Of a stretch of 64,000 bases of DNA, positions 2,280-57,005 are shown in pieces. Both the position numbers and the translations under genes were made by a program. The notes beneath the pieces are model-generated. The model was not told the origin of the DNA and did not search any database. It worked only from the letters and a program-made list of their open reading frames with translations. This DNA is from Crocinitomicaceae bacterium (GTDB lineage: Bacteria > Bacteroidota > Bacteroidia > Flavobacteriales_D > Crocinitomicaceae), in the NCBI GenBank assembly GCA_022447665.1, contig JAKVAQ010000006.1:1-64000 (forward strand), given 5' to 3'. The stretch's first letter is position 1; each line of letters opens with the position of its first letter.

Positions 2280-5006
2280 ATGAAAAACGGAATCTTATTA
2301 ATTGCCCTATTTATATCGGGCTTAAGCTTTGGACAGGCGAGTATTTATGGTAAATTGAATGACTCATTAAGTGGTCCAATTCCTGGCGCAAGTGTTATGC
2401 TAATTGGTGCACAAGATTCCATTTTAAAGTCCTTTGCGGTGACGGATGGAAATGGGATTTTCACCTTAAATAAAGTGAAACCAGGAAACTATATTTTAAA
2501 AGCTTCCTTTTTCGGATTTCAACCTTATTCTAAAAACGTAGATATTGCCGAGGGTCAAGAGGCATATGACGCCGGTGTAATTAATATGCAGCCAAAAGTA
2601 TTAGGAACCGTGACTGTTGATGCTCAATACATACCTATTGAAATTAAAGGAGACACTATTGAATACGATGCCCGGGCTTTTGAAGTGAAAGAGCAAGATA
2701 TGGTGGAAGACCTACTAGAACAGCTTCCTGGAGTTGAGGTTCAAGAAGATGGAAGTATTAAGGCGCAAGGAAAAGATGTAGAAAAAATTACCATTGATGG
2801 AGAAGAATTCTTTGCCAACGATCCTACAATTGCAACCAAAAACCTTCCTGCTAATGCAGTAGAAAAAGTTCAAGTTTTTGATGGTACCTCAGAAGAATCT
2901 GAATTTACGGGTGTAGATGATGGTGAAGAAACAACAACAATCAACATTAAGCTTAAAGAGGATCGAAAAAAGGGTTGGTTCGGAAACCTTGACCTGGCTG
3001 GAGGAATTGATATCCCGTATCAAAAGGGTGTTATACGCTACAAAGGAAAAGGGAATGTGCACTATTTCAAGAATAAATGGCAGGTTTCTTTAATTGGAAT
3101 GTCGAATAATGTGAATGAAACAGGTTTTAGTTTTGGGGATTATATGAGCTTTATGGGCGGTGCGCAAAACATGATGCGAAACGGAGGTTTTGACGGTGGC
3201 GTTGGAGGTTTTCCCCTTGCTGGAGGAGCCGATGATGGTTTTTTAAATACCCATTCTACAGGGGTTAATATTGGATTCAGACCTTCGAAACAAACAACGC
3301 TAACGTCTTCAATTTTCCTAAGCTCATTTGACAAAACTTATAGGAAGGAATTAGAAAGAACCACTTATTTCTCGGATTCTACTATTCAATCCAACGAAAT
3401 CAATGACCAAAATTCAAATAACCTTTCCAATAGAGCAGACTTAAAGTTTGAGCAACTTTTTGATAGTACACATAGATTAACATTTACCTTTTCAGGAAGA
3501 TGGAATCAAGCAGATTATTTTACTGGATCTTACCTTGAAAATTTTGATGGAAGAGACACCTTAGCGAATTCATTTAGTACAGATATTCGCCAAAGTAATT
3601 TCAATTATGAGGTTAGTGCTGGTCTTAAGTACAGAAAGAAATTCAATAAGGCTGGAAGGTTCACAGGTGGAGGAATTTCGTTTAGCCAAACTAATGCAGA
3701 TTTTACGACGAATTTGGACTATATAAATTCATTTTTTCTTGGAGGTGTGCCACTAACAAGTGAAGTGTATCAAAACCAATATAATGTTGAAAATACAGGT
3801 ATGATTAGTGGTAATTGGATGTATTCAGAGCCAATTTCAGATCGGATGTTATTACAGTTTCAGGTATCACATGTGAGAAACACTGAAGGGAGAGATCGTG
3901 ATGTTTTTGATGTTGTTTCTGATAATGAGGTGGCGAATTCATTCTTATCTGCCCAAGCTGATTATATCAACTTTACGAATAATGCTACCCTAACACACAA
4001 ATTTTTAGGGACTAAAGTGAACACTACGGTGAATGCTAAATTCCAAAACCTAAACTTGGCAGGTGACTCAATCTTTACAGAGAATAAGAGCTTCAATTTT
4101 ATTTTACCGAGTTTCCAAATGCGTTGGGATATCAATAAAAAAGCAGATATACGAATAAATTATAATACCAATGTAAATGCTCCATCTTTAAATCAACTTC
4201 AGCCTTTACCGGACAACACTAATCCAGCTGAGATCGTGCTAGGTAATACGGATCTTATTCCTGAATACCGTCATAACTTTAACCTCCGATTTAAGTCGTT
4301 CAATGAGTTTAACTTCACTTTCATTTTCGCCTCAATAGGAGGTAGTTTTACGCAAAACAATATCACTTATTCGCAGAGCATTAATGAGTTCTTTGTGCGT
4401 GAATTATTACCAGAAAACATAGGAAATGAAACCTCTTTAAATGGCTATTTAACTTATGGTTCTTCACTTTACCCTATTAAAACGAAGTTCAATATTTCAA
4501 ATACCGCTAATGTTTCAAATGGATTAATCAACTTAAACGGGGTTCAAGATCAGTATACTTCTTACTTTAATTCGGCACGAATTTCATTAGAGAACATAGG
4601 TAAAAAGGTAGTAAATCTACGTGGAGGATTTGGAGTAACTTATGGTAAAAACGTTTATCGCGAAAATGAGCTATTCAACAATAGTTATGTTAACTACGAT
4701 TACTATGTTGATTTTGAATTATTCTTGAAAGACCGTTGGGAATTTAGAGCAGACATGACCCATTATTTCTACCCTAGCTTCACAACAAATAACCAAATCA
4801 TGATTTTAAATACTTCATTAGGATTGAATCTACTAGAATCGAGAAAATTACAGGTTTTTGTTGCAGGATATGATCTATTAAATCAGAACACAGGAATCAA
4901 CCAATACTATGTACAAAACATTTACGAGCAAGAATTAACGCAAACACTTGCTAGATACGTAATGTTAGGAGTAAAATATTCATTCCAAAAGCTGTCTGCA
5001 AACTAG
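2280..5006 (+). CDS. Outer-membrane beta-barrel protein, TonB-receptor-like, with carboxypeptidase-regulatory domain
   Basis: The 908-residue protein has a signal peptide (to about residue 18), then a CarboxypepD_reg-like beta-sandwich (about 20-110), a plug-like region (about 120-225, including LLEQLPGVEVQEDGSI and the VEKVQVFDG stretch) and a long transmembrane barrel to the C-terminus. This is the architecture of the outer-membrane beta-barrel proteins related to TonB-dependent receptors in Bacteroidota. The substrate is unknown. Loops around residues 290-320 are Gly-rich. It follows two GLPGLI genes by 14 bases and is presumably their functional partner in the outer membrane. Its TAG stop falls in CTAG, shared with the stop of the convergent gene on the other strand. 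Confidence 0.87.
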   Translation: MKNGILLIALFISGLSFGQASIYGKLNDSLSGPIPGASVMLIGAQDSILKSFAVTDGNGIFTLNKVKPGNYILKASFFGFQPYSKNVDIAEGQEAYDAGVINMQPKVLGTVTVDAQYIPIEIKGDTIEYDARAFEVKEQDMVEDLLEQLPGVEVQEDGSIKAQGKDVEKITIDGEEFFANDPTIATKNLPANAVEKVQVFDGTSEESEFTGVDDGEETTTINIKLKEDRKKGWFGNLDLAGGIDIPYQKGVIRYKGKGNVHYFKNKWQVSLIGMSNNVNETGFSFGDYMSFMGGAQNMMRNGGFDGGVGGFPLAGGADDGFLNTHSTGVNIGFRPSKQTTLTSSIFLSSFDKTYRKELERTTYFSDSTIQSNEINDQNSNNLSNRADLKFEQLFDSTHRLTFTFSGRWNQADYFTGSYLENFDGRDTLANSFSTDIRQSNFNYEVSAGLKYRKKFNKAGRFTGGGISFSQTNADFTTNLDYINSFFLGGVPLTSEVYQNQYNVENTGMISGNWMYSEPISDRMLLQFQVSHVRNTEGRDRDVFDVVSDNEVANSFLSAQADYINFTNNATLTHKFLGTKVNTTVNAKFQNLNLAGDSIFTENKSFNFILPSFQMRWDINKKADIRINYNTNVNAPSLNQLQPLPDNTNPAEIVLGNTDLIPEYRHNFNLRFKSFNEFNFTFIFASIGGSFTQNNITYSQSINEFFVRELLPENIGNETSLNGYLTYGSSLYPIKTKFNISNTANVSNGLINLNGVQDQYTSYFNSARISLENIGKKVVNLRGGFGVTYGKNVYRENELFNNSYVNYDYYVDFELFLKDRWEFRADMTHYFYPSFTTNNQIMILNTSLGLNLLESRKLQVFVAGYDLLNQNTGINQYYVQNIYEQELTQTLARYVMLGVKYSFQKLSAN

Positions 5007-5515
5007 AAAAAGGTACTTCCTATAAATGTACCCATAACCACGCAGGAGAAGACAAAGACGAGGAATAAGAAAATGTATTTGGTACATCCAGAAAGCATTC
5101 CACCATTGAGAGCATCACTCAATTTATTGACTTGAGGATTATTGGGTAAATAAATGACTTCTCTCCCTTTAATTCGGCTTACCATTCCTGTTTCAAGCTC
5201 GTTCACGATTATTTTATCTGATCCTGAGATACTTTCTCCTCGCCTGGTTTTAAAAGTATAGTTCAACTTTACCATAGGGTTATTATTGATCCTCGTACCG
5301 GTTGATTTGTAGGCCGTGATATTTGCTATTGCCTTGGCTCCATGAAATTTAAGTTCATGAATTTGAGCAGGGTTATCTTTTTCTTTTACAATTCTCACTG
5401 AACGGAAGATCACGTAAACCAGAAGCAGAACAAAAAATTAAATTCCGCCTAGTAGGGGAACTGCTACATGTGTCTTCGTATTCATTAAACCCTCTAAACT
5501 TTCAACTGCTCCCAT
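5003..5515 (-). pseudogene. DUF3592-like membrane protein interrupted by an in-frame TAA
   Basis: The open part (GTG at 5413 to stop at 5003, 136 codons) begins in the middle of a hydrophobic segment. Reading further upstream in the same frame gives an ATG at 5515 and MGAVESLEGLMNTKTHVAVP, then LLGGI, a TAA at 5438-5440, then FFVLLLVYVIFRSV. The stop sits inside what would be the first transmembrane helix. The rest has a soluble beta-rich domain (about residues 60-140, with VIYLPNNPQ near its end) and a C-terminal helix, the layout of DUF3592-type proteins. It lies 23 bases after its upstream paralogue (5539-5946), in an apparent operon. Either the gene is inactive or it is expressed from the GTG without its first helix. 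Family assignment is tentative. Confidence 0.65.
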
Positions 5516-5538
5516 TCATAAATACACAAATAAGGCCA

Positions 5539-5946
5539 CTATGCACCTATAATTAAGAATTGAAATATTTTTACCGGAACATTGAACTTGTAAGTACTTC
5601 CCTCAATGCGAATAGGATTTTATGGGTGATCAGTAAGCACCAGGGAAATTCTATTGTCTTTCAAATAACGATTTTCCATGGGTTTAGAATCAATAAAAAT
5701 GAAAGATTGGGAAATCTGGGTACCCGCTAAATTTTCAAACGCCACCTTTATTTTTGTTCTCAACCTTTTTTTAGGAGAAGATTTAAAACTAGCATTGGAT
5801 TCTATAATTTTTCCTTCTCGATAAACTCCCGGAATATTTGCTAATTGCCTCTTTTTATAGGGCCGAATAGGGTCAATTTGCACCAGTTTCCAAAACCAGA
5901 AAACAACTATCATTGAAATAATTACAAGGCTGAAGATGGAGATCAT
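5539..5946 (-). pseudogene. DUF3592-like membrane protein interrupted by an in-frame TAA (paralogue)
   Basis: The first 108 codons from the ATG at 5946 encode an N-terminal transmembrane helix (IFSLVIISMIVVFWFW) and a beta-rich domain ending LVLTDHP, followed by TAA at 5620-5622. Beyond the stop the same frame continues with NPIRIEGSTYKFNV and a hydrophobic segment KIFQFLIIGA, to a natural TAG at 5539-5541. In the paralogue the matching place reads LPNNPQ, so the premature stop falls inside the conserved P-x-NP motif (CAA to TAA would restore Gln). The full frame ends 23 bases before the start of the neighbouring paralogue, as expected for an operon. Confidence 0.65.
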
Positions 5947-6019
5947 GCTCTAATATAGAACATAGTCTTTACAAATTCATGAAACCATAATTAACAATCT
6001 CAAGGTTTAGAGAAGATAC

Positions 6020-7324
6020 TTACATCTTTACTACTCTTTGAACAGAAGAGTTTCCATTTTCATCAATAACCTGAATCAAGTATATACCTTTATCATAATC
6101 GTAAAAATCAAGAGTTAGGCTGTAATCATTTAAATCGGAAATTTCATTAATGACCGAACCTGTATTTGAATAAACGATTACCCTAGAAATCCTAGTATTA
6201 GAATTTCCATTTACTGTTACATTATCCGTAGTTGGGTTAGGATAAACATTAAACTGAATATTGTTGACGGTCTTTTCTTCTGTTGATAGACCAAGATTAC
6301 AGTCTCCTACCAGCCTGGCTAAAAATTCCTCGCCGGCTTCACTTCCTGTGGTATTTATTCCAAAGGCAGTAATATTTGCAACTACTTCGGCGGATATAAT
6401 ACTTTCTGCAGCTTCGTAAAGGTATTTAGCATGTAAAGGATGATGTAACAAGTCATCACTCGGGTGAATGGCAGTGTTACCACTATTAATGTAAATAGCA
6501 GGGTCATCAGAGCTTAAATGGTATAACATATCTACATCCTGTCTGTATTGAATCAATTCAGGGTCATGCAAAATGTGATAATTGGAATCAATTCCTCCGT
6601 AAAAATCTGAGTACCTCTCAAAACCTAACAAGTTCACCATACTATCTACAGTGTAATTGCTTCCCATTCCGTCCCAGTCATTGAAAATGACACTCTCCCA
6701 TTTGTAAAGGTCATAGGTTGCTTGTCCGCCTATATAATAGACACCGCAGACTCTTGTTGATTCCCTTAAAACAGGATCAGAAGAGCTTGGTTCTGCCATA
6801 TCATCACGAGTAGCTAACCACATGCAAGTACCAGCACCAGCAGAACCACCCCTTAAACCTACTCTATGTTTATCAATAAATAAATCGTCTGCATGATAGC
6901 GCATAAATTGTAGCGATCTTTTCGAATCACTTAAGCATTTAATTACACCAACAGAGTCAACATATGTGGCTGTTTCTGGTGGAAGAATGCGGTAACCAAT
7001 TGTTGCAAAGGCAAATCCGTTTTCCAAATAATACTTCATAACCGCTTGCAAAGATGGATCTGTAAGAATCTGATCGCGCGAACCTCCTCTAAAACCACCT
7101 CCATGAATATGAATTATTAAAGGATAACTCTCAACTGTATCAGGCAGGAAAAGGTGAAAAGCTTGTTGACCAACATCAATTGTGTTGTACTCTATGTCCA
7201 GGGCATATACGGGATTCGTTGTGCCAACCCCATAACTTGCTGGAATTGGATTAAACGTTGGTGAAATTTGAGCATTATTTAAAAAACATGATAGAAATAA
7301 GATTAAGGCGAGAAGATTTTTCAT
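6020..7324 (-). CDS. Secreted alpha/beta-hydrolase (carboxylesterase type) with T9SS sorting domain
   Basis: This secreted esterase starts at the ATG at 7324, which opens a signal peptide (MKNLLALILFLSCFLNNAQ). An upstream ATG at 7348 would add eight residues and is less likely. The hydrolase part (about residues 40-320) has the oxyanion-hole motif HIHGGGFRGGS and the nucleophile elbow GGSAGAGTCMW, as in hormone-sensitive-lipase and carboxylesterase-B relatives. The last 80 residues are a T9SS type A sorting domain (FNVYPNPTTDNVTV to GIYLIQVIDENGNSSVQRVVK), so it is probably surface-attached or released through T9SS. It is homologous to the hydrolase at 17364-18572. It sits between broken genes but is itself intact. 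Confidence 0.85.
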   Translation of the reverse strand: MKNLLALILFLSCFLNNAQISPTFNPIPASYGVGTTNPVYALDIEYNTIDVGQQAFHLFLPDTVESYPLIIHIHGGGFRGGSRDQILTDPSLQAVMKYYLENGFAFATIGYRILPPETATYVDSVGVIKCLSDSKRSLQFMRYHADDLFIDKHRVGLRGGSAGAGTCMWLATRDDMAEPSSSDPVLRESTRVCGVYYIGGQATYDLYKWESVIFNDWDGMGSNYTVDSMVNLLGFERYSDFYGGIDSNYHILHDPELIQYRQDVDMLYHLSSDDPAIYINSGNTAIHPSDDLLHHPLHAKYLYEAAESIISAEVVANITAFGINTTGSEAGEEFLARLVGDCNLGLSTEEKTVNNIQFNVYPNPTTDNVTVNGNSNTRISRVIVYSNTGSVINEISDLNDYSLTLDFYDYDKGIYLIQVIDENGNSSVQRVVKM

Positions 7325-7393
7325 AAAATGAAGTTTTTGATAATTCAAATCTAAAGAGGTTGAGAGAGAAATAAATATTCATATGTATAGAAA

Positions 7394-7978
7394 TTAAGCA
7401 TTTAACCTCTTTTTTATTCGACTCAATGAATTTGGAGATATTCCAAGGTATGAAGCAAGGATTTTATTTGGAAGACGAGCAATCCATTCGGGATTATCAT
7501 CTATTATGCATTGATATCTTTCTTCGGGTTTCATTGTTATTAAACGAGATATTGTAGCATGGGCAAAAGAAAGACGATCAATTAAAATACCATTTATTAA
7601 AAGTTGAATAGAGGTAACATTTACTTGTGCTTTTATTAATTCATTGATATGTAACTTTACTAAAATGCTATTTTCTATGGTCTGAACCGCATAATTAGAA
7701 GGTATTTGTTTTAAATAGCTATCGTGAGATGTCAAAAACATTTCTTCAGTAAATAAATTACCCGTTATCTCAACACCCTTCGTAATATAAAAAAATCTAG
7801 CACTACCTTTAATAATGATATAGCAGTATTTCGCGTACTCACCGATTTCGATCAGTGTAGTTTTACTTTTTGCCTGGAACGGGTCTGAAAAGAGGTGTGC
7901 TCAGTATTCAAGTTCATTTTCGTTCATATTAACGTAACGTTTGATGACCTTTTTTATTAACTCCTTGCTCTTATTCAT
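7394..7978 (-). pseudogene. Crp/Fnr-family regulator interrupted by an in-frame TGA
   Basis: The open 3-prime part (ATG 7741 to 7394, 115 codons) covers the end of the cNMP-binding-like domain and a C-terminal helix-turn-helix (ILASYLGISPNSLSRIKKRL). The same frame extends upstream without further stops to an ATG at 7978 (MNKSKELIKKVIKRYVNMNE), apart from one TGA at 7901-7903. The text after it, AHLFSDPFQAKSKTTLIEIGE, is the usual start of the Crp/Fnr beta-roll. TGG to TGA would explain the lesion. The restored length (about 194 residues) is normal for the Bacteroidota Crp/Fnr group that often controls a neighbouring enzyme gene. It is probably inactive. The neighbouring esterase would be its obvious former target. 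Confidence 0.7.
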
Positions 7979-8088
7979 TTCTTTGGTTTCTTAATTTTAC
8001 GTAAAAAAATCCAACGGCCGGGCCATTTATTTTTCTTCAATATATTCTCCAGGAAAGCGATCCAATTAATTGAATTTATATTTGTTAC

Positions 8089-10893
8089 TTGTTCAGACAT
8101 TTTTTCATATCGTTATGCTTACTGGCATTTAATTCACTTCATGCCCAGTATCCCAATCGTTTTACCATTGGGAAAGAAGAATTAGAGGGAGCGCATGTCT
8201 ACAATATTTTTCAAGCTTCGGATGGTGTTTATTGGATAGCTACGTCACAAGGATTATATAAATATGACAGCTATGACTTTAAGAAACTTCCATCAAAAGG
8301 AATGGTTGTAGAGTCATACTTTAGTATTAAGGAAAATTATACTGGACAGGTTTTCTGTCATAATTTATCAGGTCAAATTGCAGTAGTAAATCAAGATACT
8401 GTTGATTTATTTTTTGAAATACCAGATTCCTTAAAAAACGCATATATGTTTTATGACTTTGATAAGGAAAACAATCTTGTTATTGGTTCAAAAGCCCTAT
8501 TCAAAGTTAAAGGCAACGAGGTCTCTGATATATGTGTCGACCTTAAGTTTCCTGCTTCATTTACAGATAATGTTCGCATGCCGAATGGAGATTTGATTGT
8601 GATAGGGAATTTTAATAACAAAATAACGATTACTCCTGATGAGTATACTATAAGTAAGATTGTTAGGAGTAGATTCCCGAGAGAGCAAGTTACACCAGTT
8701 TTATTTGAAAATGAGTTGTTATTCATTGGAAAATCGAATGGTGAAATAGTATCAGGAAAACAAAATAAAAACTGGAAAACCAAAGAGAAAGGCTCCACTT
8801 ATTTGTTCAACAACAATGAAGTTTTTGAGCTTGGATTAGTAACCGGCCTTGGAATTATTGGAGATGAAAAAAAGCTTATCGATGATGAGTTTGTATCGTA
8901 TGTTTTTCGAGATAAAGAAGGAAATGTATTAGCGGGAACATTTGGTAAGGGTATCATGGTAGTTCCAAATACAAAAATTCTCACCTGGAATAATTTGGGT
9001 AAAAGATCGCCCTTTCGAATAGAAACAATTTCCGATACTTCGGTGCTAGTTTTGTGCGACGACAAAAGCATATGGGAAATAACTGAAAAAGGAGAAACCA
9101 AAATTATTGAAGAGGCAACGAGTTCAATTACATTATTTGCCATTCCAAATTCCAATTGGATTCTAATTCACGAAAGCTCGAACGCCAAACTATTCAACTT
9201 AAAAACAAAAGAAAAAATAGTCCTCCATATAGGTTGTCCAAAGTCTTTTAAGCAAATTTCTAATAACCTGTTTTTATGTGCTAGTGAACTCGGGATGATT
9301 GAATTAAAATTAACACTGAATCAGGGCAAACTGGAAGTTGAAGACAAACATGTTTATGGTGTATACAGTAGAAGTTATTCTGGCTTTTTCAACAAAGAGA
9401 ATAATTATTTATATGCCGGTACGCGTTACGGTTTAAAAGTGGGCGATAATGATACGTTGATTGAGATAAAAATTGATGGACAAAGAATTTCTACAAAGGA
9501 TGCAATTTACTTCAATAATCAAGTTCTTTTGGGAACTGGAGCACATGGTATTCTGGTGCTTGAAGATGATAAAGTAGTGAAACGGATCAACGAATCCTCA
9601 GGATTATCTAATAATTGGGTGCGAAACTTTCAACCTTATGGAAATAAATTAATGTGCCTAACGGGACATGGTATTGACTTATTGAACAAAGACCATGAAG
9701 TAGTATGGTCAATTAATGAAATCAATGGTTTGGCAAGTAAGGGGTATTTAGATGCAGCCTTTACAAAAAATAAGTCCTGGTTTTTAGGTGCTGATTACGT
9801 TGAATGGTCTGATTTGGAGGAGTACCTGCAGCCTGTCCAATATCCAACACTAAGTGTCAACTACTATGGCATAGACAATGAAACCATCGATACTTCGACA
9901 CACGAGTTTTCATTCGACCAATCAGGTTTAAAAATTGAGTTTAGCGCCCCTTCAATAAAGCATAAAAAGTTCATTCAGTATGAATATAGAATGATTGGTT
10001 TAGATTCAGCATGGCGTAAAAAAACCGATTATTATGACAGGATAGTAGAATACGAGTTTTTACCAGAAGGTCATTATAGGTTTGAGGCCCGATTGAAAAT
10101 CAATTCTTATCAATCGGATGTTCAATCGTTTTCCTTTAAAATATTTCCACCGTTTTGGCGCACTTGGTGGTTCTATATTGGTATTGCCCTATCCATAGTG
10201 GTACTAATGTGGTTAGTGTTTAGATTTCAGTTAGGAAGACAGCGAAAAATTGCCAGAATTGAAAGAGATGCGGTAGCTTCTAAACTGAAGGCCGTTCAAT
10301 CGCAAATGAACCCTCATTTTATCTTTAACTCTCTCAACTCTATACAAGACTTAGTATTAGACAAGGAAGGTCAAAACGCTTATATTTATTTGAATAAGTT
10401 TTCATTTTTAATGCGTAGCGTCCTTGAATTTTCACAAAAAGAATTCATTCATATTGATAATGAGTTAGCCCTATTAGAAGTTTACCTTGACCTCGAAAAA
10501 CTGAGGTTCGAAGAAGATTTTAATTATACATTAGAATGCAATGTAGAAGAGGTTCAAGTGCCTCCAATGCTTATACAACCTTTTGTTGAAAACGCTATTA
10601 AGCATGGGCTTTTGCATAAGGAAGGTCAGAGAGATTTAAAAATTTCCATTGATTTAAAAGACGAAGTACTTTGGTGTAGAATTGAAGACAATGGAGTGGG
10701 GCGAAAACGTGCCGAGGAAATAAAAAAACGTAAAGGGGGCGATCATAAATCCTTTTCAGTTGCGGCAACTATGGATAGACTGGATGTTTTAAAATCAGTT
10801 TTTGACCAAGAATTCTTCATCGAGTATGAAGATTTGGAGAACGAAAAGGGCACAATAGTCCACATTCAAATGCCATTTAGAAGAAAATATTAG
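8089..10893 (+). CDS. Sensor histidine kinase, LytS type, with two-component beta-propeller
   Basis: The 934-residue membrane sensor has a signal peptide (residues 1-19, MFRHFFISLCLLAFNSLHAQ), a periplasmic seven-bladed propeller of the two-component-regulator type (about 25-570), a Y_Y_Y-like immunoglobulin domain (about 600-700), one transmembrane helix (about 702-725) and a cytoplasmic His_kinase domain. That domain has the phospho-acceptor motif QMNPHFIFNSLNSI (His near 742) and a HATPase with PFVENAIKHGL and EDNGVG. The start is TTG at 8089: it begins the signal peptide, and an in-frame stop lies just upstream. It probably phosphorylates the LytTR regulator encoded 73 bases downstream. 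The ligand is unknown. Confidence 0.9.
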   Translation: MFRHFFISLCLLAFNSLHAQYPNRFTIGKEELEGAHVYNIFQASDGVYWIATSQGLYKYDSYDFKKLPSKGMVVESYFSIKENYTGQVFCHNLSGQIAVVNQDTVDLFFEIPDSLKNAYMFYDFDKENNLVIGSKALFKVKGNEVSDICVDLKFPASFTDNVRMPNGDLIVIGNFNNKITITPDEYTISKIVRSRFPREQVTPVLFENELLFIGKSNGEIVSGKQNKNWKTKEKGSTYLFNNNEVFELGLVTGLGIIGDEKKLIDDEFVSYVFRDKEGNVLAGTFGKGIMVVPNTKILTWNNLGKRSPFRIETISDTSVLVLCDDKSIWEITEKGETKIIEEATSSITLFAIPNSNWILIHESSNAKLFNLKTKEKIVLHIGCPKSFKQISNNLFLCASELGMIELKLTLNQGKLEVEDKHVYGVYSRSYSGFFNKENNYLYAGTRYGLKVGDNDTLIEIKIDGQRISTKDAIYFNNQVLLGTGAHGILVLEDDKVVKRINESSGLSNNWVRNFQPYGNKLMCLTGHGIDLLNKDHEVVWSINEINGLASKGYLDAAFTKNKSWFLGADYVEWSDLEEYLQPVQYPTLSVNYYGIDNETIDTSTHEFSFDQSGLKIEFSAPSIKHKKFIQYEYRMIGLDSAWRKKTDYYDRIVEYEFLPEGHYRFEARLKINSYQSDVQSFSFKIFPPFWRTWWFYIGIALSIVVLMWLVFRFQLGRQRKIARIERDAVASKLKAVQSQMNPHFIFNSLNSIQDLVLDKEGQNAYIYLNKFSFLMRSVLEFSQKEFIHIDNELALLEVYLDLEKLRFEEDFNYTLECNVEEVQVPPMLIQPFVENAIKHGLLHKEGQRDLKISIDLKDEVLWCRIEDNGVGRKRAEEIKKRKGGDHKSFSVAATMDRLDVLKSVFDQEFFIEYEDLENEKGTIVHIQMPFRRKY

Positions 10894-10966
10894 TCATTGC
10901 TAAACAATAATTAACTATTCATAAATTTTTAGAGGAACAAAGGGTATTTAAAAAGATATTTGTTTT

Positions 10967-11704
10967 GTGAAAATTAAGAGTATCATCATCGATGACGAGA
11001 GAAGAGCAAGAGGAATTCTCAGAAAGCTCTTGGCTAGTAACGCTCCAAACGTTGAGGTTGTTGAGGAAGCTGGAAACTTAAAAGATGGCGTTGAACTCAT
11101 ACGTCAGTGTAATCCAGATGTAGTTTTCTTGGACATTGATATGCCGAATTATGCGGGTCATGAAATAGGAAAGTTTTTCGATAAAATTGATTTCGAAATT
11201 ATTTTCGTTACGGCTTATGATTCCTTTGCTATAAAGGCTTTCGAAATGGCCGCTATTGATTATTTGCTCAAGCCAATTGATATTTCAAGATTGAATGAAG
11301 CAGTGGATAAGCTAACATCAAAGTTAGAAACAAGAGAAAATGAACTCAATTATAAAGTCCTCCTCGACTCCCTTGAAAATAAGGAGAGTCAGACGATAGT
11401 GGTCTCGTTTAAAGGAAATAAAAAGGCGATTAAGCTCTCCGAAATTGTTGCCGTGGAGGCAAGTTCAGCCTATAGTATTATTCACACTAAATCAGGAGAA
11501 GAATATCTGTATAGTAGAAACTTGAAGTTCTTTGAAGATCTTTTTGAAGATATGGTAGAGTTCTTTCGATCACATAAATCTTGGATTATCAATACCAAAA
11601 GTGTTAGTTCCTTTTCAAAATCTAAGTTAATTATACAGCTTGACAGTGGAATAGAAGCCAAGCTTTCTAAGTTTAAAAAGGGCGAATTCATTAAGCTAGT
11701 GTAA
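10967..11704 (+). CDS. LytTR-family response regulator
   Basis: This 245-residue regulator has an N-terminal receiver domain (about 1-120) with acidic DDE residues near position 10, phospho-acceptor Asp in VVFLDIDMP (about 55), T in FVTAYD and K in YLLKPI. The C-terminal LytTR DNA-binding domain spans about 140-240 (AVEASSAYSIIHTKSGEEYLYSRNL, FFRSHKSWIIN). The start codon is GTG. It is paired with the LytS-type kinase upstream. LytTR proteins bind imperfect direct repeats about two helical turns apart, and such a repeat with 20-bp period begins eight bases after this stop codon. Confidence 0.92.
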   Translation: MKIKSIIIDDERRARGILRKLLASNAPNVEVVEEAGNLKDGVELIRQCNPDVVFLDIDMPNYAGHEIGKFFDKIDFEIIFVTAYDSFAIKAFEMAAIDYLLKPIDISRLNEAVDKLTSKLETRENELNYKVLLDSLENKESQTIVVSFKGNKKAIKLSEIVAVEASSAYSIIHTKSGEEYLYSRNLKFFEDLFEDMVEFFRSHKSWIINTKSVSSFSKSKLIIQLDSGIEAKLSKFKKGEFIKLV

Positions 11705-11711
11705 AAAACAG

Positions 11712-11746
11712 GGTCGTTCCTAAAAAAAATTGGTCATTCGTAAAAA
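11712..11746. promoter_or_regulatory. Imperfect direct repeat, 20-bp period: candidate LytTR operator
   Basis: GGTCGTTCCTAAAAA at 11712-11726 and GGTCATTCGTAAAAA at 11732-11746 match at 13 of 15 positions and repeat with a 20-bp period, about two helical turns. This is the geometry bound by LytTR domains. The repeat lies directly downstream of the LytTR gene and about 30 bases before the likely start of the structured RNA. Confidence 0.5.
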
Positions 11747-11774
11747 TTGAACGGCAAGAGCCTCTTCTTTGATG

Positions 11775-11940
11775 TATCATTGCCCCGATTTAAGTGCTAA
11801 GTGCATCTAACGCGGGGGCAAGATGCATGAAACTATATCTCGAGCAACCACTGGGATATAGATTGTTAATGAAGTAAGGGAGCTAGCTAACCGTTAAACC
11901 CTACATAAAAGAGAGAGTTCTGAAGAGTTCTCTCTTTTTT
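11775..11940 (+). ncRNA. Candidate structured small RNA with possible pseudoknot and terminator
   Basis: No reading frame explains this intergenic stretch, but it is dense in complementary segments. TTGCCCC (11780-11786) pairs with GGGGCAA (11815-11821). TGCATCT (11802-11808), inside that loop, pairs with AGATGCA (11821-11827), giving an H-type pseudoknot or two exclusive hairpins. CTATATCTC (11833-11841) pairs with GGGATATAG (11853-11861), with one U-G pair. AGGG (11877-11880) can pair with CCCT (11899-11902). A Rho-independent terminator closes the element at 11907-11940. A degenerate -7 box (TTTG at 11768-11771) would start the RNA near 11776. It matches no RNA family I can name. It could be a regulatory RNA controlled by the adjacent LytTR system. 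Confidence 0.5.
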
Positions 11941-11943
11941 ATT
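11907..11943. terminator. Rho-independent terminator
   Basis: AAAAGAGAGA pairs with TCTCTCTTTT across a loop that can itself pair partly, followed by a T-rich tail. The A-rich left flank lets it work on both strands, so it can end the rightward RNA and also the convergent gene ending at 11944. Confidence 0.75.
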
Positions 11944-12486
11944 TTAAGACTCTATTCTGTCCAAGTCATCAAAACCTATGGCATGATAAAGAACACTTAC
12001 AAGATGTAAAGTTTGATCACGTTGAGAACCCTGCCCCGACCTGGCAATAACCCAAACACCTAAAATTACAGCCAGTGTTATTGGGAAGCACCAAATCCAA
12101 GGAGTTTTAATTCCAAAACTCCACTGACTTAGTCCATATAAACCACCGAATACAGAAAGTACACTCAAGAAAGAGTAAATAAATACAAAAAGCATCCAAC
12201 CATTTCCTTGTGGACCAACAAGAACTCGAATTACAGTTTTACCAGGATAATCATATTCGTCCTTTTCAACAGTAATTCGCAATTCAGGCGACCAAAAAGT
12301 TCGGCCCTCATAATCGGGAATATCCAGGTAGTATTGATTTAGTACCTTTTTTCCGACTACCGTGCGGTCTTCATTGATAAAAGCCTTAAGTCGAGAAAAT
12401 ACTTCCTCTTCTTCTAAATCAGTTATTAATTTAAAGCGAGGATGTATTTCACTGTCCAAATGATGGTCTTTCTTATTAAATGGCAA
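11944..12486 (-). CDS. Hypothetical protein with two transmembrane helices
   Basis: I do not recognise this 180-residue protein. The N-terminal 95 residues are soluble and charged. A hydrophobic helix (about 97-118, GWMLFVFIYSFLSVLSVFGGL) and a second one (about 128-150, WIWCFPITLAVILGVWVIA) follow, joined by a short Gly/Trp-containing loop, then a 30-residue soluble tail. With an even number of helices both ends should lie on the same side of the inner membrane. It is transcribed convergently with the LytTR/RNA unit, separated by a bidirectional terminator, and lies divergent from the broken gene at 12636. A hairpin or operator at 12541-12562 lies in the divergent gap. Confidence 0.7.
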   Translation of the reverse strand: MPFNKKDHHLDSEIHPRFKLITDLEEEEVFSRLKAFINEDRTVVGKKVLNQYYLDIPDYEGRTFWSPELRITVEKDEYDYPGKTVIRVLVGPQGNGWMLFVFIYSFLSVLSVFGGLYGLSQWSFGIKTPWIWCFPITLAVILGVWVIARSGQGSQRDQTLHLVSVLYHAIGFDDLDRIES

Positions 12487-12540
12487 AGTCGGTACTTAAA
12501 CTCAGAATTTATTGATTCAATGAAACATGTAAAAATATGT

Positions 12541-12562
12541 AGACCTGATTTTGGTCAGGTCT
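12541..12562. promoter_or_regulatory. Perfect 8-bp-arm inverted repeat in a divergent intergenic region
   Basis: AGACCTGA and TCAGGTCT flank a six-base loop. The element sits between divergent genes starting at 12486 (minus) and 12636 (plus). It is not followed by a T-tract on the plus strand, which favours an operator over a terminator. Confidence 0.35.
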
Positions 12563-12635
12563 GTTCAAGGGTGTCTGCCTTTTATTCAAATAAGATTGAT
12601 AGAACAATAGAGGCTTAGTCCTGTTTATAATAAAC

Positions 12636-12902
12636 ATGAAAAAACTTCGCATACCAGTAATTCTCGTCACTTTATACCTCTGCTTGTACGCGGCAATACC
12701 TGAACTTGGTCTTCCAATGAATTTATTTTTCGTAATGTTTGGATTGTCCCCATTACTAGTAATAGGTTTGGTTTATCGGGTCCGTAAAAAAGGAGTAGCA
12801 TCTGAGCGCACATGGGAAGAAGGTTAGTTTTATGATGATGCGGAGCATATGCATAATATTCCCGACGAAGAAACAATGATGGATGAGATCCATGAAGATT
12901 AA
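12636..12902 (+). pseudogene. Small membrane protein interrupted by an in-frame TAG
   Basis: The frame opens at an ATG at 12636 with two hydrophobic helices (about residues 5-22 and 28-46, separated by PELGLPMN), then a basic stretch VYRVRKKG. It meets TAG at 12825-12827 after TWEEG. The same frame continues with a strongly acidic, protein-like tail (FYDDAEHMHNIPDEETMMDE) to TAA at 12900-12902. TGG or CAG to TAG would explain the stop. The restored protein is 88 residues. I do not recognise the family. The truncated 63-residue product still keeps both helices and might be functional. Confidence 0.6.
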
Positions 12903-12988
12903 ATGAGTTCTACTTCGTTTTAATCCGACTAAAAATTTAGGATAAATTAAGACTCATTTTATATCATTTCAACCCCTAACTTACGTTG

Positions 12989-12996
12989 TATATTTG
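12989..12996 (+). promoter_or_regulatory. Candidate -7 box of the mevalonate operon
   Basis: TATATTTG matches TAnnTTTG and lies about 80 bases before the HMG-CoA reductase ATG at 13076. No clear TTG -33 element stands at the normal spacing, so this is a candidate only. Confidence 0.4.
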
Positions 12997-13075
12997 AACA
13001 ATAGTTTACGAAAACTGTTTTCGCTGTAGAGACACATTGTGAAAATTGACTATTTTTACTATAGCATTCAACCTT

Positions 13076-14410
13076 ATGGAAGAAAAAATAAAAGGTTTTT
13101 CCAAGCTATCTAAGAATGGAAAAATAGAATGGCTGTTAAACAGCTACTTTGAAGGAGACGAATCAGTTCTAGATTTGTTAAAGTCATATTGGCATGTTAA
13201 TACTGATATTCAGAGAAGACATGATGACTTCATAGAAAACGCAGTTACTAACTTTTACATTCCTTTTGGGGTGGCGCCAAATTTCCGCATTAACGGAAAA
13301 AACTATTGTATTCCTTTTGCAATTGAGGAATCATCAGTAGTAGCTGCTTCGGCAAAGGCAGCTTCGTTCTGGTTCGATAGAGGCGGGTTTAAAAGTGAAG
13401 TAATAAGTACAAAAAAAATTGGACACGTACATTTTACATGGGACGCTGATAAATCTAAGATCCAAGAATTCTTCAATACTTTAAAAGAAGAACTTCATAG
13501 TGGAGCACAAGACCTAACGGCGAACATGCAAAAAAGGGGTGGAGGTATTTCAGACATTGAGCTGGTAGATAAAACGGCTGATGAGCCAAATTACTATCAA
13601 ATCAAAGGAACATTTGAAACACAAGACGCTATGGGGGCGAATTTTATCAATTCTATCCTTGAACGTTGGTCAAGTATTTGGAAAGAAAAAGCGGCTAAAT
13701 CTTCTCTTTTCACTGAGGAGGAAAAAGAAGGATTACTGATTGTAATGTGCATCCTTTCTAATTATACACCGGAGTGCATTGTGCGTTCAGAGGTTTCTTG
13801 TAAGGTGGAAGATTTATTCAATGATAAGTCAGAGTTTCCTTCGGAGCTGTTTGCAGAGAAGTTCAAGCAAGCAATTCGTATTGCGAACATTGAGCCATAC
13901 AGAGCAACAACACACAACAAAGGGATCATGAACGGTATTGATGCAGTAGTCATTGCTACTGGAAATGATTTTAGAGCAGTTGAGGCGTGTGCACATGCTT
14001 ATGCTTCAAGAGACGGACAATATCGAAGCTTGACGCAATGTGAGGTTAAAGACGGAGTTTTTAGATTCTGGATTGATTTACCAATTGCTGTAGGTACTGT
14101 AGGAGGAATTACTTCTCTTCACCCAATGGTTAAATTTGCCCATGACTTACTTGGTAAGCCAGATTCGAAGGAGTTAATGCAAATTATTTCTTGTGCTGGA
14201 TTAGCACAGAACTTCGGGGCTGTTGCTTCATTAGTGACAACGGGTATTCAAAAAGGACACATGAAAATGCACCTTAAGAACATCATGAATCAGCTTGAAG
14301 TAGCACCAGAAGATCAAGTTAAAATTGCTGCATATTTTGAAGACAGAGTGGTTAGTTTTAGTGAAGTAGAGAGTTATTACAACAAAATATGCGGGAGAAT
14401 CAATAAGTAA
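13076..14410 (+). CDS. Hydroxymethylglutaryl-CoA reductase, class II type
   Basis: This enzyme reduces HMG-CoA to mevalonate, the committed step of isoprenoid synthesis through the mevalonate pathway. The ATG at 13076 (MEEKIKGFSKLS) is preferred over the upstream in-frame codon at 13046, whose extension looks unrelated. Catalytic elements are all visible: Glu in IENAVTNFYIPFGVAP (about 54), the DAMGAN motif, Lys in HNKGIMNGIDAVV, Asp in ATGNDFRA, and His in GIQKGHMKM near the C-terminus. DAMGAN and the overall length of 444 residues fit the bacterial class II enzymes. It is the first gene of a four-gene operon, with the next start three bases after its stop. Confidence 0.93.
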   Translation: MEEKIKGFSKLSKNGKIEWLLNSYFEGDESVLDLLKSYWHVNTDIQRRHDDFIENAVTNFYIPFGVAPNFRINGKNYCIPFAIEESSVVAASAKAASFWFDRGGFKSEVISTKKIGHVHFTWDADKSKIQEFFNTLKEELHSGAQDLTANMQKRGGGISDIELVDKTADEPNYYQIKGTFETQDAMGANFINSILERWSSIWKEKAAKSSLFTEEEKEGLLIVMCILSNYTPECIVRSEVSCKVEDLFNDKSEFPSELFAEKFKQAIRIANIEPYRATTHNKGIMNGIDAVVIATGNDFRAVEACAHAYASRDGQYRSLTQCEVKDGVFRFWIDLPIAVGTVGGITSLHPMVKFAHDLLGKPDSKELMQIISCAGLAQNFGAVASLVTTGIQKGHMKMHLKNIMNQLEVAPEDQVKIAAYFEDRVVSFSEVESYYNKICGRINK

Positions 14411-14413
14411 GTA

Positions 14414-15352
14414 GTGGACACAGATAGGGAAACTTACTTTAAATCTCACGGAAAGCTTTTATTAACAGGAGAATACCTTGTCCTTAAGGGGGCTAAGGCC
14501 TTGGGTTTACGCGCTAATTTTGCTCAAAATTTTAGTGTTAAGGATAATAAATCTACCAAGGGCCAAATACATTGGCTGGCCAAAAATATTAAGGGTGAAA
14601 TCTGGTACGAAGGGAACTTTCACATTGAAGACGGTAAAGTTTTACCCTCTGAAGAAAGTCAAAATGATATTTCTCTAAAATTGGCGAAGGCGTTACAATT
14701 TGTAAATGATAAAACAGATTGCTTTTCTAATCAATCTTTCAACTTCACTTCAGAAGTTGAGTTTCCGAGGGAATGGGGTTTAGGAACAAGTTCAACTATG
14801 TTAGCAAACCTATCGAAATGGTCATCTGTTGATCCTTTTGAACTATTAAAAAACACATTTGGAGGAAGTGGTTATGATGTTGCAGTAGCTATGACCAATA
14901 GGCACATTCTTTACACTTTAAACCAAGATGAAAGAAATATAGAAACAGTAAGTTTTTCTCCTGCATTTAAAGAGCATATCTTTTTTGTTTATTTAAATGA
15001 GAAGAGAGATTCGCAAAATGCCGTAGCGTCTTTTAAGAAGTATGCTGAAAGTGAAAAAGTGATTGAGGCCATTGCTGAAATAAACGAAATAACAAAATTA
15101 GTTTCTGAGACCAATTCTTTGAAGGAGTTCGAAGATGCGTTGAAGAGACATGAACGAATTTTATCAGATATCCTCAATGAGGTTCCCGTGAAAGAAAGAC
15201 TTTTTTCGGATTACACAGGAGGTATCTGTAAATCCTTAGGAGCCTGGGGTGGTGACTTTATTATGGTTACTGGAAAAAAAGAAGATTTAAAGTACTTTAG
15301 TAACAAAGGCTACAATACAATTTTGAGTTTTAAAGAAATGATTTGCGAATGA
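14414..15352 (+). CDS. GYDIA-family GHMP kinase
   Basis: The 312-residue protein belongs to the GHMP kinase superfamily. It has an N-terminal GKLLLTGEYLVLKGA segment, the ATP-binding glycine loop GLGTSSTMLANL (about 120-130) and the eponymous GSGYDVAVA motif (about 155). Proteins of this type lie in flavobacterial mevalonate operons between HMG-CoA reductase and the decarboxylase. No ordinary phosphomevalonate kinase is encoded in this operon, so this protein is the natural candidate for that step, but that is inference. The start is GTG at 14414, and the stop overlaps the next ATG in ATGA. Confidence 0.85.
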   Translation: MDTDRETYFKSHGKLLLTGEYLVLKGAKALGLRANFAQNFSVKDNKSTKGQIHWLAKNIKGEIWYEGNFHIEDGKVLPSEESQNDISLKLAKALQFVNDKTDCFSNQSFNFTSEVEFPREWGLGTSSTMLANLSKWSSVDPFELLKNTFGGSGYDVAVAMTNRHILYTLNQDERNIETVSFSPAFKEHIFFVYLNEKRDSQNAVASFKKYAESEKVIEAIAEINEITKLVSETNSLKEFEDALKRHERILSDILNEVPVKERLFSDYTGGICKSLGAWGGDFIMVTGKKEDLKYFSNKGYNTILSFKEMICE

Positions 15353-16419
15353 GTGAAACGATATTAACAGTGAAAAAAGCGACAATTGAATATCAATCAC
15401 CAAGTAATATAGCTTTGGTGAAGTACTGGGGAAAAAAGGGAGTACAAATCCCTATGAACCCATCAATTTCCTTCACGCTCTCGAATTGTGCAACTACTAC
15501 TTCTGTTGAATTTGAGCATTCAACTGAAGAAGAAGAAGTAGCATTTGAGTTTTTGTTTGAAGGAGAGCCAAAGCCCTCATTTCATCCTAAACTAGCCAAG
15601 TTCTTTAGTTTGGTAACGCAGGATTTTCCAGAGTTAAAACAGTATCGTTTAACTATTAATTCTTCAAATTCTTTCCCACATAGTAGTGGTATCGCATCAT
15701 CGGCCTCGGCTATGTCAGCTTTAGCACTTTGTTTAGGAGATTTTGAGAAGAAGTTAAAAGAAGACAATTACCCTTATAACATACAAGAAAGAGTATCTCA
15801 TTGGGCCCGTTTAGGTTCCGGATCTGCTTGTAGATCTGTTTTTCCTGGTTTAGCACTTTGGGGAAAGACACCTGAAGTTGAAGGAAGTAGTGATGAATTT
15901 GCTATTGAAGTGGATGATGTTGCTCCTGTTTTTAAAGATTATTGTGACATCGTTTTATTGGTTGATAAGGGTAAAAAGAAGATATCAAGTACTGTTGGTC
16001 ATCAGCTAATGGATGGTCATCCGTATGCAAATGCACGAATAAATCACGCAAATGAGAACCTTGGAAGATTAATGAAAATCTTACAAAAAGGCGACGTTGA
16101 TGATTTTATAGAAGTGGTTGAAAATGAAGCGCTTACTCTACACGCGATGATGTTAGCATCCAATCCTGGATTCTTCCTTATTCACGATGGTACGTTGAAA
16201 ATAATTGAAAAAATCCGCTATTTTCGTGAACAAGAAGGTGTTAAATTGTGTTTCACTTTGGATGCTGGTGCGAATGTACATTTGCTTTACCCGAAAGAAG
16301 ACCATGACACAGTAACGGCATTTGTTATTGAAAATCTTTTGGAATATTGCGAAAATGAAGCGTACATTTGCGATAGTGTAGGAAGAGGGCCGAAAAGATT
16401 AAATGAAATTTATGAATAG
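15349..16419 (+). CDS. mvaD: Diphosphomevalonate decarboxylase family protein
   Basis: This enzyme performs the ATP-dependent decarboxylation of mevalonate diphosphate to isopentenyl diphosphate. Diagnostic segments are the N-terminal SNIALVKYWGKK, the ATP loop PHSSGIASSASAMSAL (about residues 105-120), GSGSACRSVFPGLALWG and the catalytic Asp in FTLDAGANVHLLY. The ATG at 15349 overlaps the stop of the upstream kinase by four bases, a sign of translational coupling. An upstream TTG at 15343 is less likely. The relatives include mevalonate 3,5-bisphosphate decarboxylases, but the conserved residues fit the usual bacterial and eukaryotic enzyme. Confidence 0.9.
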   Translation: MSETILTVKKATIEYQSPSNIALVKYWGKKGVQIPMNPSISFTLSNCATTTSVEFEHSTEEEEVAFEFLFEGEPKPSFHPKLAKFFSLVTQDFPELKQYRLTINSSNSFPHSSGIASSASAMSALALCLGDFEKKLKEDNYPYNIQERVSHWARLGSGSACRSVFPGLALWGKTPEVEGSSDEFAIEVDDVAPVFKDYCDIVLLVDKGKKKISSTVGHQLMDGHPYANARINHANENLGRLMKILQKGDVDDFIEVVENEALTLHAMMLASNPGFFLIHDGTLKIIEKIRYFREQEGVKLCFTLDAGANVHLLYPKEDHDTVTAFVIENLLEYCENEAYICDSVGRGPKRLNEIYE

Positions 16420-18669: not shown

Positions 18670-20448
18670 TTGAACAGCGACCTTTCCATAGCAGTACTTC
18701 CCTTTAAGAACATGAGTTCGAATGAAGAGAATGAGTACTTCTGCGACGGAATAACCGAGGAGATTATAAACGCACTTGCGAAAATTGGATCCTTAAAGGT
18801 CACCTCAAGAACATCATCATTTCATTTTAAGAATAAAGAATTACCTATTTCTGAAATAGGAGAAACCCTTGGTGTTACTACAATTTTGGAAGGAAGTGCA
18901 CGACTAGCTGGAGGGGTGGTAAGAATCACTGCTCAGCTTATTCAGGCTGAAGATGATTTTCATTATTGGTCAGAAACATGGGACAGAAAGTTTGAGAATA
19001 TATTTGAAATACAAGATGAGGTAAGTCTATTAATAGCGGATAAAATCCGAGAAAATTTTGGACATTTTGAACTGGAAGATCACTTAATTCCTGCGGCAAC
19101 AAAGGATATAAATGCTTACGAATATTCTCTAAAAGGAAACTTTTACAAGAATAAATGGGGTGCCGACAATGCAAAAAAATCCCTTGAATATTATCAGAAA
19201 AGTTTGGAGCTAGATTCACAATTAGTTGATTCAATTATTGGCTTAGCAGATGTTTATAGTTTCTTAGGAATGGTAGGACAAATGCCGTTTCAAGAAGCAT
19301 GGATGAAGTGTAATGAGTTAATAGAAAAAACTCTAGAGCTTGATCCAAAGAATGCAAAAGCCTATTATCAAAAGGGACATAGTGCTTTCTTTACCGAGGT
19401 CAATTTTTCGAAAGCAATGGAGTTTGGTACCAAAGCAATTCAATTAAGCCCGAATTATGCTGAGGCACAGCAGTTCATGTCCTTCTTGCATGTCCTTTCT
19501 GGAAATGTAGAGGAGTCGAAAAAGCATTTGGACATAGCTATTGGATTGGATCCTTTAAATCGAGAGACCCTCTTTTTCAAGGCCTATTTTGATTACATGA
19601 CGCGGAATTATGGCCCTGCTATGGAGCAATTGGCCGCTTGTATTGAAGTAAATCCTGCAAATATTCCAGCCCATTCAGTCATGGTTCTTGCCTTGCTTAA
19701 GACAGGAGAATACGATAGAGTGATTCATTATTTTGATGACATTGATGAGGAGTTAGTGGAAGCTGAGAAAACCGGATCCATTGCATTGGCGCACGCCTTC
19801 AAAAAGGATGCAGAGAACATTGAGAAGTACAAGAAAATTCTTTTGGAACGATCTAAAACACCTGATGGCTTTACCTATGATTCATATGTGTTTATGATGC
19901 ACGCTGTTTGTGGAGAAATTGATCAAGCATTTGAATGGGTTGAAAATGGAATCAAAAACAAATCTTCCTTGTTAATGTTGCGCTATCCTGACCCCATGGT
20001 GGATATTTTAAGAGAAGATGATCGGTATCAAAAGCTGCATGAACAGATGTTTATCGCAACGGTTAAGGCGACTACTAAATCAGCGAAGAAGGCACTGCTA
20101 GATGAATCATCGGCTGAGGAATACAAGAAGAAATTGGTCGATTATATAGAAGATAATGAGGCGTTTTTAGATCCTGAATTAACCTTAAGGTCATTAGCAG
20201 ACCAAATCGAACTTCACCCCAACAAGCTTTCATGGCTCATTAATGAGATGCATGCGCAAAACTTTAACCAGTTCATTAATGCTTATCGCATTGAGCGGTT
20301 CAAGTTCTTGGCACTAAAACCGGATAGCTCCCAATTCAGTATTCTTGGATTGGCCTACGAAAGTGGATTCAATTCTAAAACCGTCTTTAACACTTACTTT
20401 AAAAAGAGTACAGGCCAATCTCCTAAGGCTTGGATTCAGGCGCAGTAG
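18670..20448 (+). CDS. Transcriptional regulator: TolB/FlgO-like domain, TPR repeats, AraC-type HTH
   Basis: The 592-residue cytosolic protein starts with a FlgO/TolB-N-like domain (about 5-135; SIAVLPFKNMSSNEENEYFCDGI, then ILEGSARLAGGVVRITAQLI). TPR repeats follow (about 150-440; for example LEYYQKSLELDSQLVDSIIGLADVY and MEFGTKAIQLSPNYAEAQ). It ends in an AraC-family DNA-binding domain (about 490-590; LRSLADQIELHPNKLSWLINE and ILGLAYESGFNSKTVFNTYFKK). No membrane segment is present. The start is TTG. It directly precedes an oxidoreductase operon whose promoter carries direct repeats suited to AraC proteins, so it is probably the local activator. Confidence 0.85.
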   Translation: MNSDLSIAVLPFKNMSSNEENEYFCDGITEEIINALAKIGSLKVTSRTSSFHFKNKELPISEIGETLGVTTILEGSARLAGGVVRITAQLIQAEDDFHYWSETWDRKFENIFEIQDEVSLLIADKIRENFGHFELEDHLIPAATKDINAYEYSLKGNFYKNKWGADNAKKSLEYYQKSLELDSQLVDSIIGLADVYSFLGMVGQMPFQEAWMKCNELIEKTLELDPKNAKAYYQKGHSAFFTEVNFSKAMEFGTKAIQLSPNYAEAQQFMSFLHVLSGNVEESKKHLDIAIGLDPLNRETLFFKAYFDYMTRNYGPAMEQLAACIEVNPANIPAHSVMVLALLKTGEYDRVIHYFDDIDEELVEAEKTGSIALAHAFKKDAENIEKYKKILLERSKTPDGFTYDSYVFMMHAVCGEIDQAFEWVENGIKNKSSLLMLRYPDPMVDILREDDRYQKLHEQMFIATVKATTKSAKKALLDESSAEEYKKKLVDYIEDNEAFLDPELTLRSLADQIELHPNKLSWLINEMHAQNFNQFINAYRIERFKFLALKPDSSQFSILGLAYESGFNSKTVFNTYFKKSTGQSPKAWIQAQ

Positions 20449-28248: not shown

Positions 28249-28791
28249 CTAATTAGTTCTGGTTTTTTTTGGTCTAAAAGGCTTAATCACGTCTTCATTA
28301 CACTCCAAATAAGGACCTTCCATTAAATCGATACAATAAGGAATAGCTGGAAAAACGGCATCTAAACATTCGCGAATAGACTTTGGTTTCCCGGGCAGGT
28401 TTACAATTAAACTACTTCCTCTAAGCCCTGCTGTTTGTCTTGATAATATGGCGGTTGGCACATATTTCAACGATTCAGCCCGCATTAATTCTCCAAAACC
28501 AGGCATCATTCTATCACAAACCGCCTCAGTTGCTTCGGGTGTAACATCTCTTTTTGCAGGACCAGTTCCTCCTGTAGTCACTACCAAGCAACAATCATGA
28601 TGGTCAATCATATCAATAATTGTTTGCTCAATTACTTCATGTTCGTCGGGTACAACCTCATAAAATTCTTCCCACTCAGAGGTTAAATATTCATTCAAAG
28701 TATCTTTAATTGCTTTTCCACTGAGGTCTTCATATACACCAGCACTAGCGCGATCGCTTACTGTTACAATACCTATTTTTACTATTGACAA
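28249..28791 (-). CDS. mogA: MogA/MoaB family molybdopterin adenylyltransferase
   Basis: This cytosolic enzyme activates molybdopterin with ATP before molybdenum insertion during cofactor synthesis. The 180-residue protein has the signature region CLVVTTGGTGPAKRDVTPEAT (about residues 68-88) and SLIVNLPGKPKSIRECLDAVFPAIPYCID in the C-terminal half, including the PGxP motif. Length and motifs favour the MogA form. No other molybdenum-cofactor gene lies in the window, so it is an isolated copy. Confidence 0.88.
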   Translation of the reverse strand: MSIVKIGIVTVSDRASAGVYEDLSGKAIKDTLNEYLTSEWEEFYEVVPDEHEVIEQTIIDMIDHHDCCLVVTTGGTGPAKRDVTPEATEAVCDRMMPGFGELMRAESLKYVPTAILSRQTAGLRGSSLIVNLPGKPKSIRECLDAVFPAIPYCIDLMEGPYLECNEDVIKPFRPKKTRTN

Positions 28792-28847
28792 AATGAGTGT
28801 TTTAGAATTTACTCTAAGTTAAGAAATTATATCAGACTCAATTTTCT

Positions 28848-56947: not shown

Positions 56948-56978
56948 TTGGTCTGATAACAAATATACTATACTTTTG
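56948..56978 (+). promoter_or_regulatory. Promoter of the F420-reductase-like gene
   Basis: TTG (56948-56950) and TACTTTTG (56971-56978) match the Bacteroidota -33 and -7 elements with a 20-base spacer. Transcription would start near 56985. Confidence 0.6.
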
Positions 56979-56984
56979 ATAGTA
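56966..56984. promoter_or_regulatory. Palindromic operator over the -7 box
   Basis: TACTAT and ATAGTA flank seven bases and straddle the -7 box, so a bound repressor would block RNA polymerase. The divergent HxlR gene is the obvious source of the repressor. Removal of the inducing signal would shut the promoter. Confidence 0.6.
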
Positions 56985-57005
56985 GATATTAAAATTATAG
57001 TAAAA

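Follow-up and report, generated by a model that had tools for sequence, protein, structure and literature searches.

LytTR-controlled regulatory RNAs are known mainly from Firmicutes. In E. coli, the LytS/LytTR pairs YpdA/YpdB and BtsS/BtsR have transporter genes as their main targets, and we know of no RNA target, and of no autoregulatory site of the kind described below, for either pair. In Staphylococcus aureus, the LytTR regulator AgrA binds direct repeats arranged in pairs and activates its own operon together with the adjacent regulatory RNA, RNAIII (PMC7602753), and in Clostridium perfringens, the regulon of the kinase/regulator pair that includes VirR contains a regulatory RNA, VR-RNA, alongside secreted proteins (PMC7602753). 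According to a work cited in PMC4847170, VirR likewise binds imperfect direct repeats. A LytTR operator is defined as two repeats of 9 to 11 nt that lie ~11 to 13 nt apart upstream of a promoter (PMC4847170).

Here we describe a locus from a Crocinitomicaceae bacterium (Bacteroidota), contained in a 64,000-nucleotide stretch of contig JAKVAQ010000006.1 that is referred to as the window. We consider it rather likely that a sensor kinase encoded here acts through a LytTR regulator on the regulator's own gene and on a noncoding regulatory RNA. The kinase and regulator genes lie in tandem (Table 1); Pfam assigns a His_kinase domain (PF06580) to the first and a receiver and a LytTR domain to the second, and the motifs PHFIFNSLN and PFVENAIKHG are visible in the kinase sequence. 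A preliminary description of this DNA had named the two genes as a LytS kinase and a LytTR regulator, and the Pfam assignments bear this out. The kinase mRNA appears to be leaderless, as the predicted transcription start at 8089 coincides with the TTG start codon; the box TATATTTG ends 4 nt before it. On the minus strand, a 115-amino-acid ORF without a Pfam match (7394-7741) has a C terminus, LASYLGISPNSLSRIKKRLN, that resembles the DNA-binding helix-turn-helix of Crp-type regulators, and it is perhaps a truncated regulator.

Table 1. Features of the locus and of related transcription units (positions in the window unless a locus is given)
Feature	Position	Strand	Basis or location
Kinase-gene -7 box TATATTTG	8077-8084	+	Consensus position -12 to -5 (PMC9723704)
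Sensor kinase, LytS/YehU type (Reg_prop and Y_Y_Y sensor, TM segment, His_kinase)	8089-10893	+	Pfam
Predicted autoregulatory LytTR promoter (half-sites 10894-10904 and 10915-10925, period 21)	10894-10962	+	Scan, matrix
-7 box GATATTTG of upstream (regulator-gene) promoter	10955-10962	+	Scan, matrix
LytTR response regulator (Response_reg and LytTR domains)	10967-11704	+	Pfam
Candidate LytTR operator, half-sites TCGTTCCTAAA (11714-11724) and TCATTCGTAAA (11734-11744)	11714-11744	+	Motif comparison, matrix
-7 box TATCATTG, 41 bp past start of half-site 2	11775-11782	+	Composite pattern, matrix
Predicted LytTR-driven RNA, ~150-155 nt	11787-11940	+	Promoter geometry, terminator, no ORF >27 codons
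Predicted hairpin H1 (GTGCATCT / AGATGCAT)	11801-11828	+	Folding
Predicted hairpin H2 (CTATATCTC / GGGATATAG)	11833-11861	+	Folding
Predicted intrinsic terminator, strong hairpin followed by T-rich tract	11907-11938	+	Terminator prediction
584-aa T9SS protein, LytTR-type promoter	L128:5275-7029		Own genome
Second short RNA unit (predicted), own terminator, LytTR-type promoter with TACCTTTG box	L128:7116-7275 (G000 C23 ~19115-19274)		Own genome
DUF6272 protein, LytTR-type promoter	L129:2660-3727	-	Own genome
Third short RNA unit (predicted), other genus, roughly 85 nt, own terminator, LytTR-type promoter	L185:1500-1650 (G163 C14 ~28784-28934)		

The regulator gene is followed by a direct repeat (11712-11726 and 11732-11746) in which 13 of 15 positions are identical at a period of 20, and sequence comparison confirmed this repeat as it had originally been reported. 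The -7 box of the promoter that we assign to it has no mismatch to the composite pattern but one to TAnnTTTG; a first estimate of the box, CTTCTTTG (11764-11771), was dropped because relatives show a spacing of 39 to 41 bp. Since another such site precedes the regulator gene, this gene is probably autoregulated, with +1 predicted at 10967, where the GTG start codon of LytTR begins, as in a leaderless mRNA. The core repeats are 11 nt long with 9 to 10 nt between them, at the same period of 20 to 21, in agreement with the published operator definition. When both strands of the window (~128,000 positions) were scanned with a weight matrix built from 39 sites, none of them from this genome, the top score (34.2) fell on the copy at 11714-11782, with its second half-site at 11734, and the next (22.5) on the copy at 10894-10962, with its second half-site at 10915. 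The third-ranking score was only 7.2, and the maximum in three shuffled windows was 2.7. That a predicted operator flanks the regulator gene before and after is the best indication at hand of binding by the regulator, and the promoter after the regulator gene is very probably under the regulator's own control.

Of 150 genomes from this family, 60 contain LytTR homologues (E ≤ 1e-40). The paired half-sites recur in relatives after the regulator stop codon (in L069 they read CCATTCCTGAA-N9-CTATTCCTGAA), and ~40 bp past the start of the second half-site a TAnnTTTG-like box is found, followed by a gene. Scanning of these loci for half-sites of the form YYRTTNNTRAA at a period of 20 or 21, with a TANNNTTG box at 39 to 41 bp, returned 46 rows, a few of which represent one promoter read twice. 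The sites fall into three classes, located directly before the LytTR gene, before other genes, or before short terminator-ended stretches. In the first class, the box usually lies 4 to 6 nt ahead of the start codon, and therefore +1 should be located ~5 nt after the box, a spacing expected for leaderless mRNAs, which seem to be common for lytTR genes in this family. This agrees with the position of -12 to -5 measured for the sigma-A box TAnnTTTG in F. psychrophilum (PMC9723704), and the two together place +1 of the downstream promoter at 11787. In the second class, which consists mostly of signal-peptide genes, the start codon follows 10 to 29 nt past the box. A site was found just upstream of the LytTR gene for 14 of 29 family homologues and just downstream for 12 of 29, with none found at L068, the nearest LytTR homologue (60% identity). 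Across the family, the repeats taken alone, with no -7 box required, were just moderately above a reversed control, and the strength of the putative operator signal is its combination with the -7 box and with position. On this comparative evidence, we take the repeat to be a LytTR operator.

These regularities bear on the idea that the region is nothing more than a structured 3' UTR belonging to the lytTR mRNA, with the repeats providing further autoregulation and with no RNA of its own starting at 11787. We consider this very improbable. In its favor, there is no terminator from the lytTR stop codon to 11907, and the stretch 11748-11905, which excludes the terminator, folds better than chance (z -4.25), but the -7 box sits at the conserved distance and the same promoter layout heads transcription units of their own in relatives.

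Each of the 12 relatives that have a downstream site carries a protein gene behind it, and most of these genes encode a signal peptide. By contrast, the LytTR stop codon of the window is followed by ~200 bp without a gene and with a terminator at the end, and the predicted transcript holds no ORF of more than 27 codons. It is conceivable that a former secreted-protein gene has been lost and that a still active LytTR promoter drives a functionless leader into a neighboring terminator. The protein genes at this spot in the relatives and the restriction of the RNA to this genome favor such a remnant, and the terminator might be that of the convergent gene whose end is at 11944, which it may in any case also serve. 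No coding remnant is visible in any frame, however, two strong hairpins lie between start and terminator, and two more short RNAs have the same layout, with their own terminators.

One of these RNAs was found in a search for sites across this genome, whose scores are bimodal among the loci examined: four score 1 to 4 and the remainder at least 9, with the autoregulatory site being additional. The list is a lower bound compiled from pattern searches and short stretches, with 30 of 130 half-site matches examined in context. The four sites precede the window RNA, a 584-amino-acid T9SS protein, a second short RNA, and a DUF6272 protein; for the last, the half-sites are weaker, the first one being weak, and the leader is ~90 to 100 nt. 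A T9SS sorting domain is present in three of four target proteins checked, namely, the 584-amino-acid protein, L083, and L085, and absent in L069. The second RNA unit is followed by a nitroreductase gene that starts at L128:7314 with its own TAAATTTG box just ahead. The third unit, from another genus, is immediately followed by another LytTR-type promoter, which serves a secreted protein. In both additional units, the promoter is preceded by a terminator hairpin distinct from the one that ends the unit after roughly 85 to 95 nt, and neither holds an open frame of useful length; by eye, the three RNAs have no clear mutual sequence similarity. The occurrence of RNA-type targets in more than one place speaks against a remnant, without excluding it, and we regard that explanation as rather unlikely. 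The earlier suggestion that the LytTR protein acts through the repeats on a downstream RNA is well supported on comparative genomic grounds by the operator and its spacing in relatives, the autoregulatory copy, and the two further RNA-type units.

The promoter class otherwise drives proteins, and open frames do exist in the predicted transcript, one of 16 amino acids from the ATG at 11827 (MKLYLEQPLGYRLLMK) and one of 27 amino acids from the GTG at 11794. That the transcript is a small-peptide gene nevertheless seems improbable, as the ATG lies 44 nt past the -7 box compared with 10 to 29 nt in relatives and sits within hairpin H1, and no comparable frame is found in the other two short RNAs.

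The element had also been described as a heavily structured, gene-free, terminator-ended region with two stems in a pseudoknot arrangement. The terminator and the stability of 11748-11943 hold (-68 kcal/mol; z about -5.5; 0 of 200 to 300 shuffles as stable), and when the window was coarsely tiled, a z of -4 or lower was obtained for 0.8% of the 160-nt tiles. The body of the predicted transcript (11786-11905), however, is overall not unusually folded (z -1.2), and much of the stability is due to the terminator and to sequence upstream of the predicted start. Hairpins H1 and H2 are strong, with a z of -4.0 for 11798-11870, a subregion picked after the fold was seen. The pseudoknot arms are complementary (TTGCCCC at 11780-11786 with GGGGGCAA at 11814-11821, and GTGCATCT at 11801-11808 with AGATGCAT at 11821-11828), but the arm TTGCCCC overlaps the -7 box and precedes the start at 11787, and hence its stem should not form in RNA initiated at this promoter. 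The pseudoknot is thus not supported for the predicted transcript, although a longer mRNA reading through from lytTR could contain the TTGCCCC stem. Elsewhere in the window, low z values were obtained for the 160-nt tiles 41948-42107 (+; -5.9), 38148-38307 (-; -5.0), and 56948-57107 (+; -4.6), with 20 shuffles each.

In Rfam 15, no covariance model matched the element above the gathering threshold, and at E values up to 10 just sub-threshold matches at the terminator region were obtained. No homologue of the RNA was found by blastn in 59 relatives, plasmids, and 239 other family genomes; a match in G031 (E 0.006) is 24 bases long. A covariance model of the RNA likewise found no homologue in the 239 other family genomes, and hence no covariation, and no RNA was seen by eye after the LytTR gene in eight distant homologues inspected. 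For the mRNAs of the kinase, LytTR, the secreted protein, and the DUF6272 protein, the predicted pairing was no better than that of shuffled RNA. The kinase mRNA initially ranked best of 54 as a pairing target, but the stretch used included untranscribed sequence, and with the predicted mRNA start the pairing fell to shuffle level.

Taken together, the comparisons support the predicted operator, its geometry, the regulon, and the lack of a sizeable ORF. For the system as a whole, we infer that the kinase phosphorylates the LytTR regulator, which would bind paired half-sites ~40 bp upstream of sigma-A-type -7 boxes and activate its own leaderless gene from 10894-10962. From the site at 11714-11782, it would activate the short terminator-ended RNA (~11787-11940), and the same promoter class in this genome would drive the T9SS-sorted secreted protein, the second short RNA, and probably the DUF6272 protein. 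The RNA itself would act as a noncoding regulator, probably through base-pairing; analogy to RNAIII and VR-RNA (PMC7602753) makes this the likeliest reading.

In the open-access papers searched, we found no description of a LytTR-controlled RNA or a LytTR operator from Bacteroidota. Tentatively, and with somewhat less confidence than even chances would warrant, we propose that in this family control by the LytTR pair extends to small regulatory RNAs in addition to T9SS-secreted proteins, an RNAIII-like layer of independent origin in Bacteroidota in which RNA genes have replaced protein genes behind a conserved operator. This work defines, for the family, how a LytTR operator and its promoter are laid out, predicts a small regulon, and provides three RNA candidates, and a vague likeness to agr has been turned into testable predictions of binding and start sites.

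With regard to the known systems, the sequence GGCATTTCAT, which E. coli YpdB binds as a direct repeat (PMC4847170), resembles GGTCATTCGT of the window. VR-RNA is 386 nt long and regulates many genes, and the VirR-VR-RNA system resembles that of the window in circuit logic but differs from it in sequence, sensor, and promoter. RNAIII is a 514-nt RNA that is divergent from its operon and encodes delta-hemolysin, and agr has a peptide signal, whereas the window system has a Reg_prop kinase sensor, a predicted codirectional RNA of ~155 nt, and a Bacteroidota-type promoter. The ORFs of at least 60 amino acids at 5000-16000, nine of which were analyzed with Pfam, include neither an AgrB-type enzyme nor an AgrD-type peptide gene, and no divergent P2/P3 pair was found, the promoters at 10894-10962 and 11714-11782 being codirectional. 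On this evidence, assignment of the locus to Agr is not supported, and the Agr-like label that it was first given applies only to the logic of the circuit, for which a likeness to AgrA-RNAIII is plausible.
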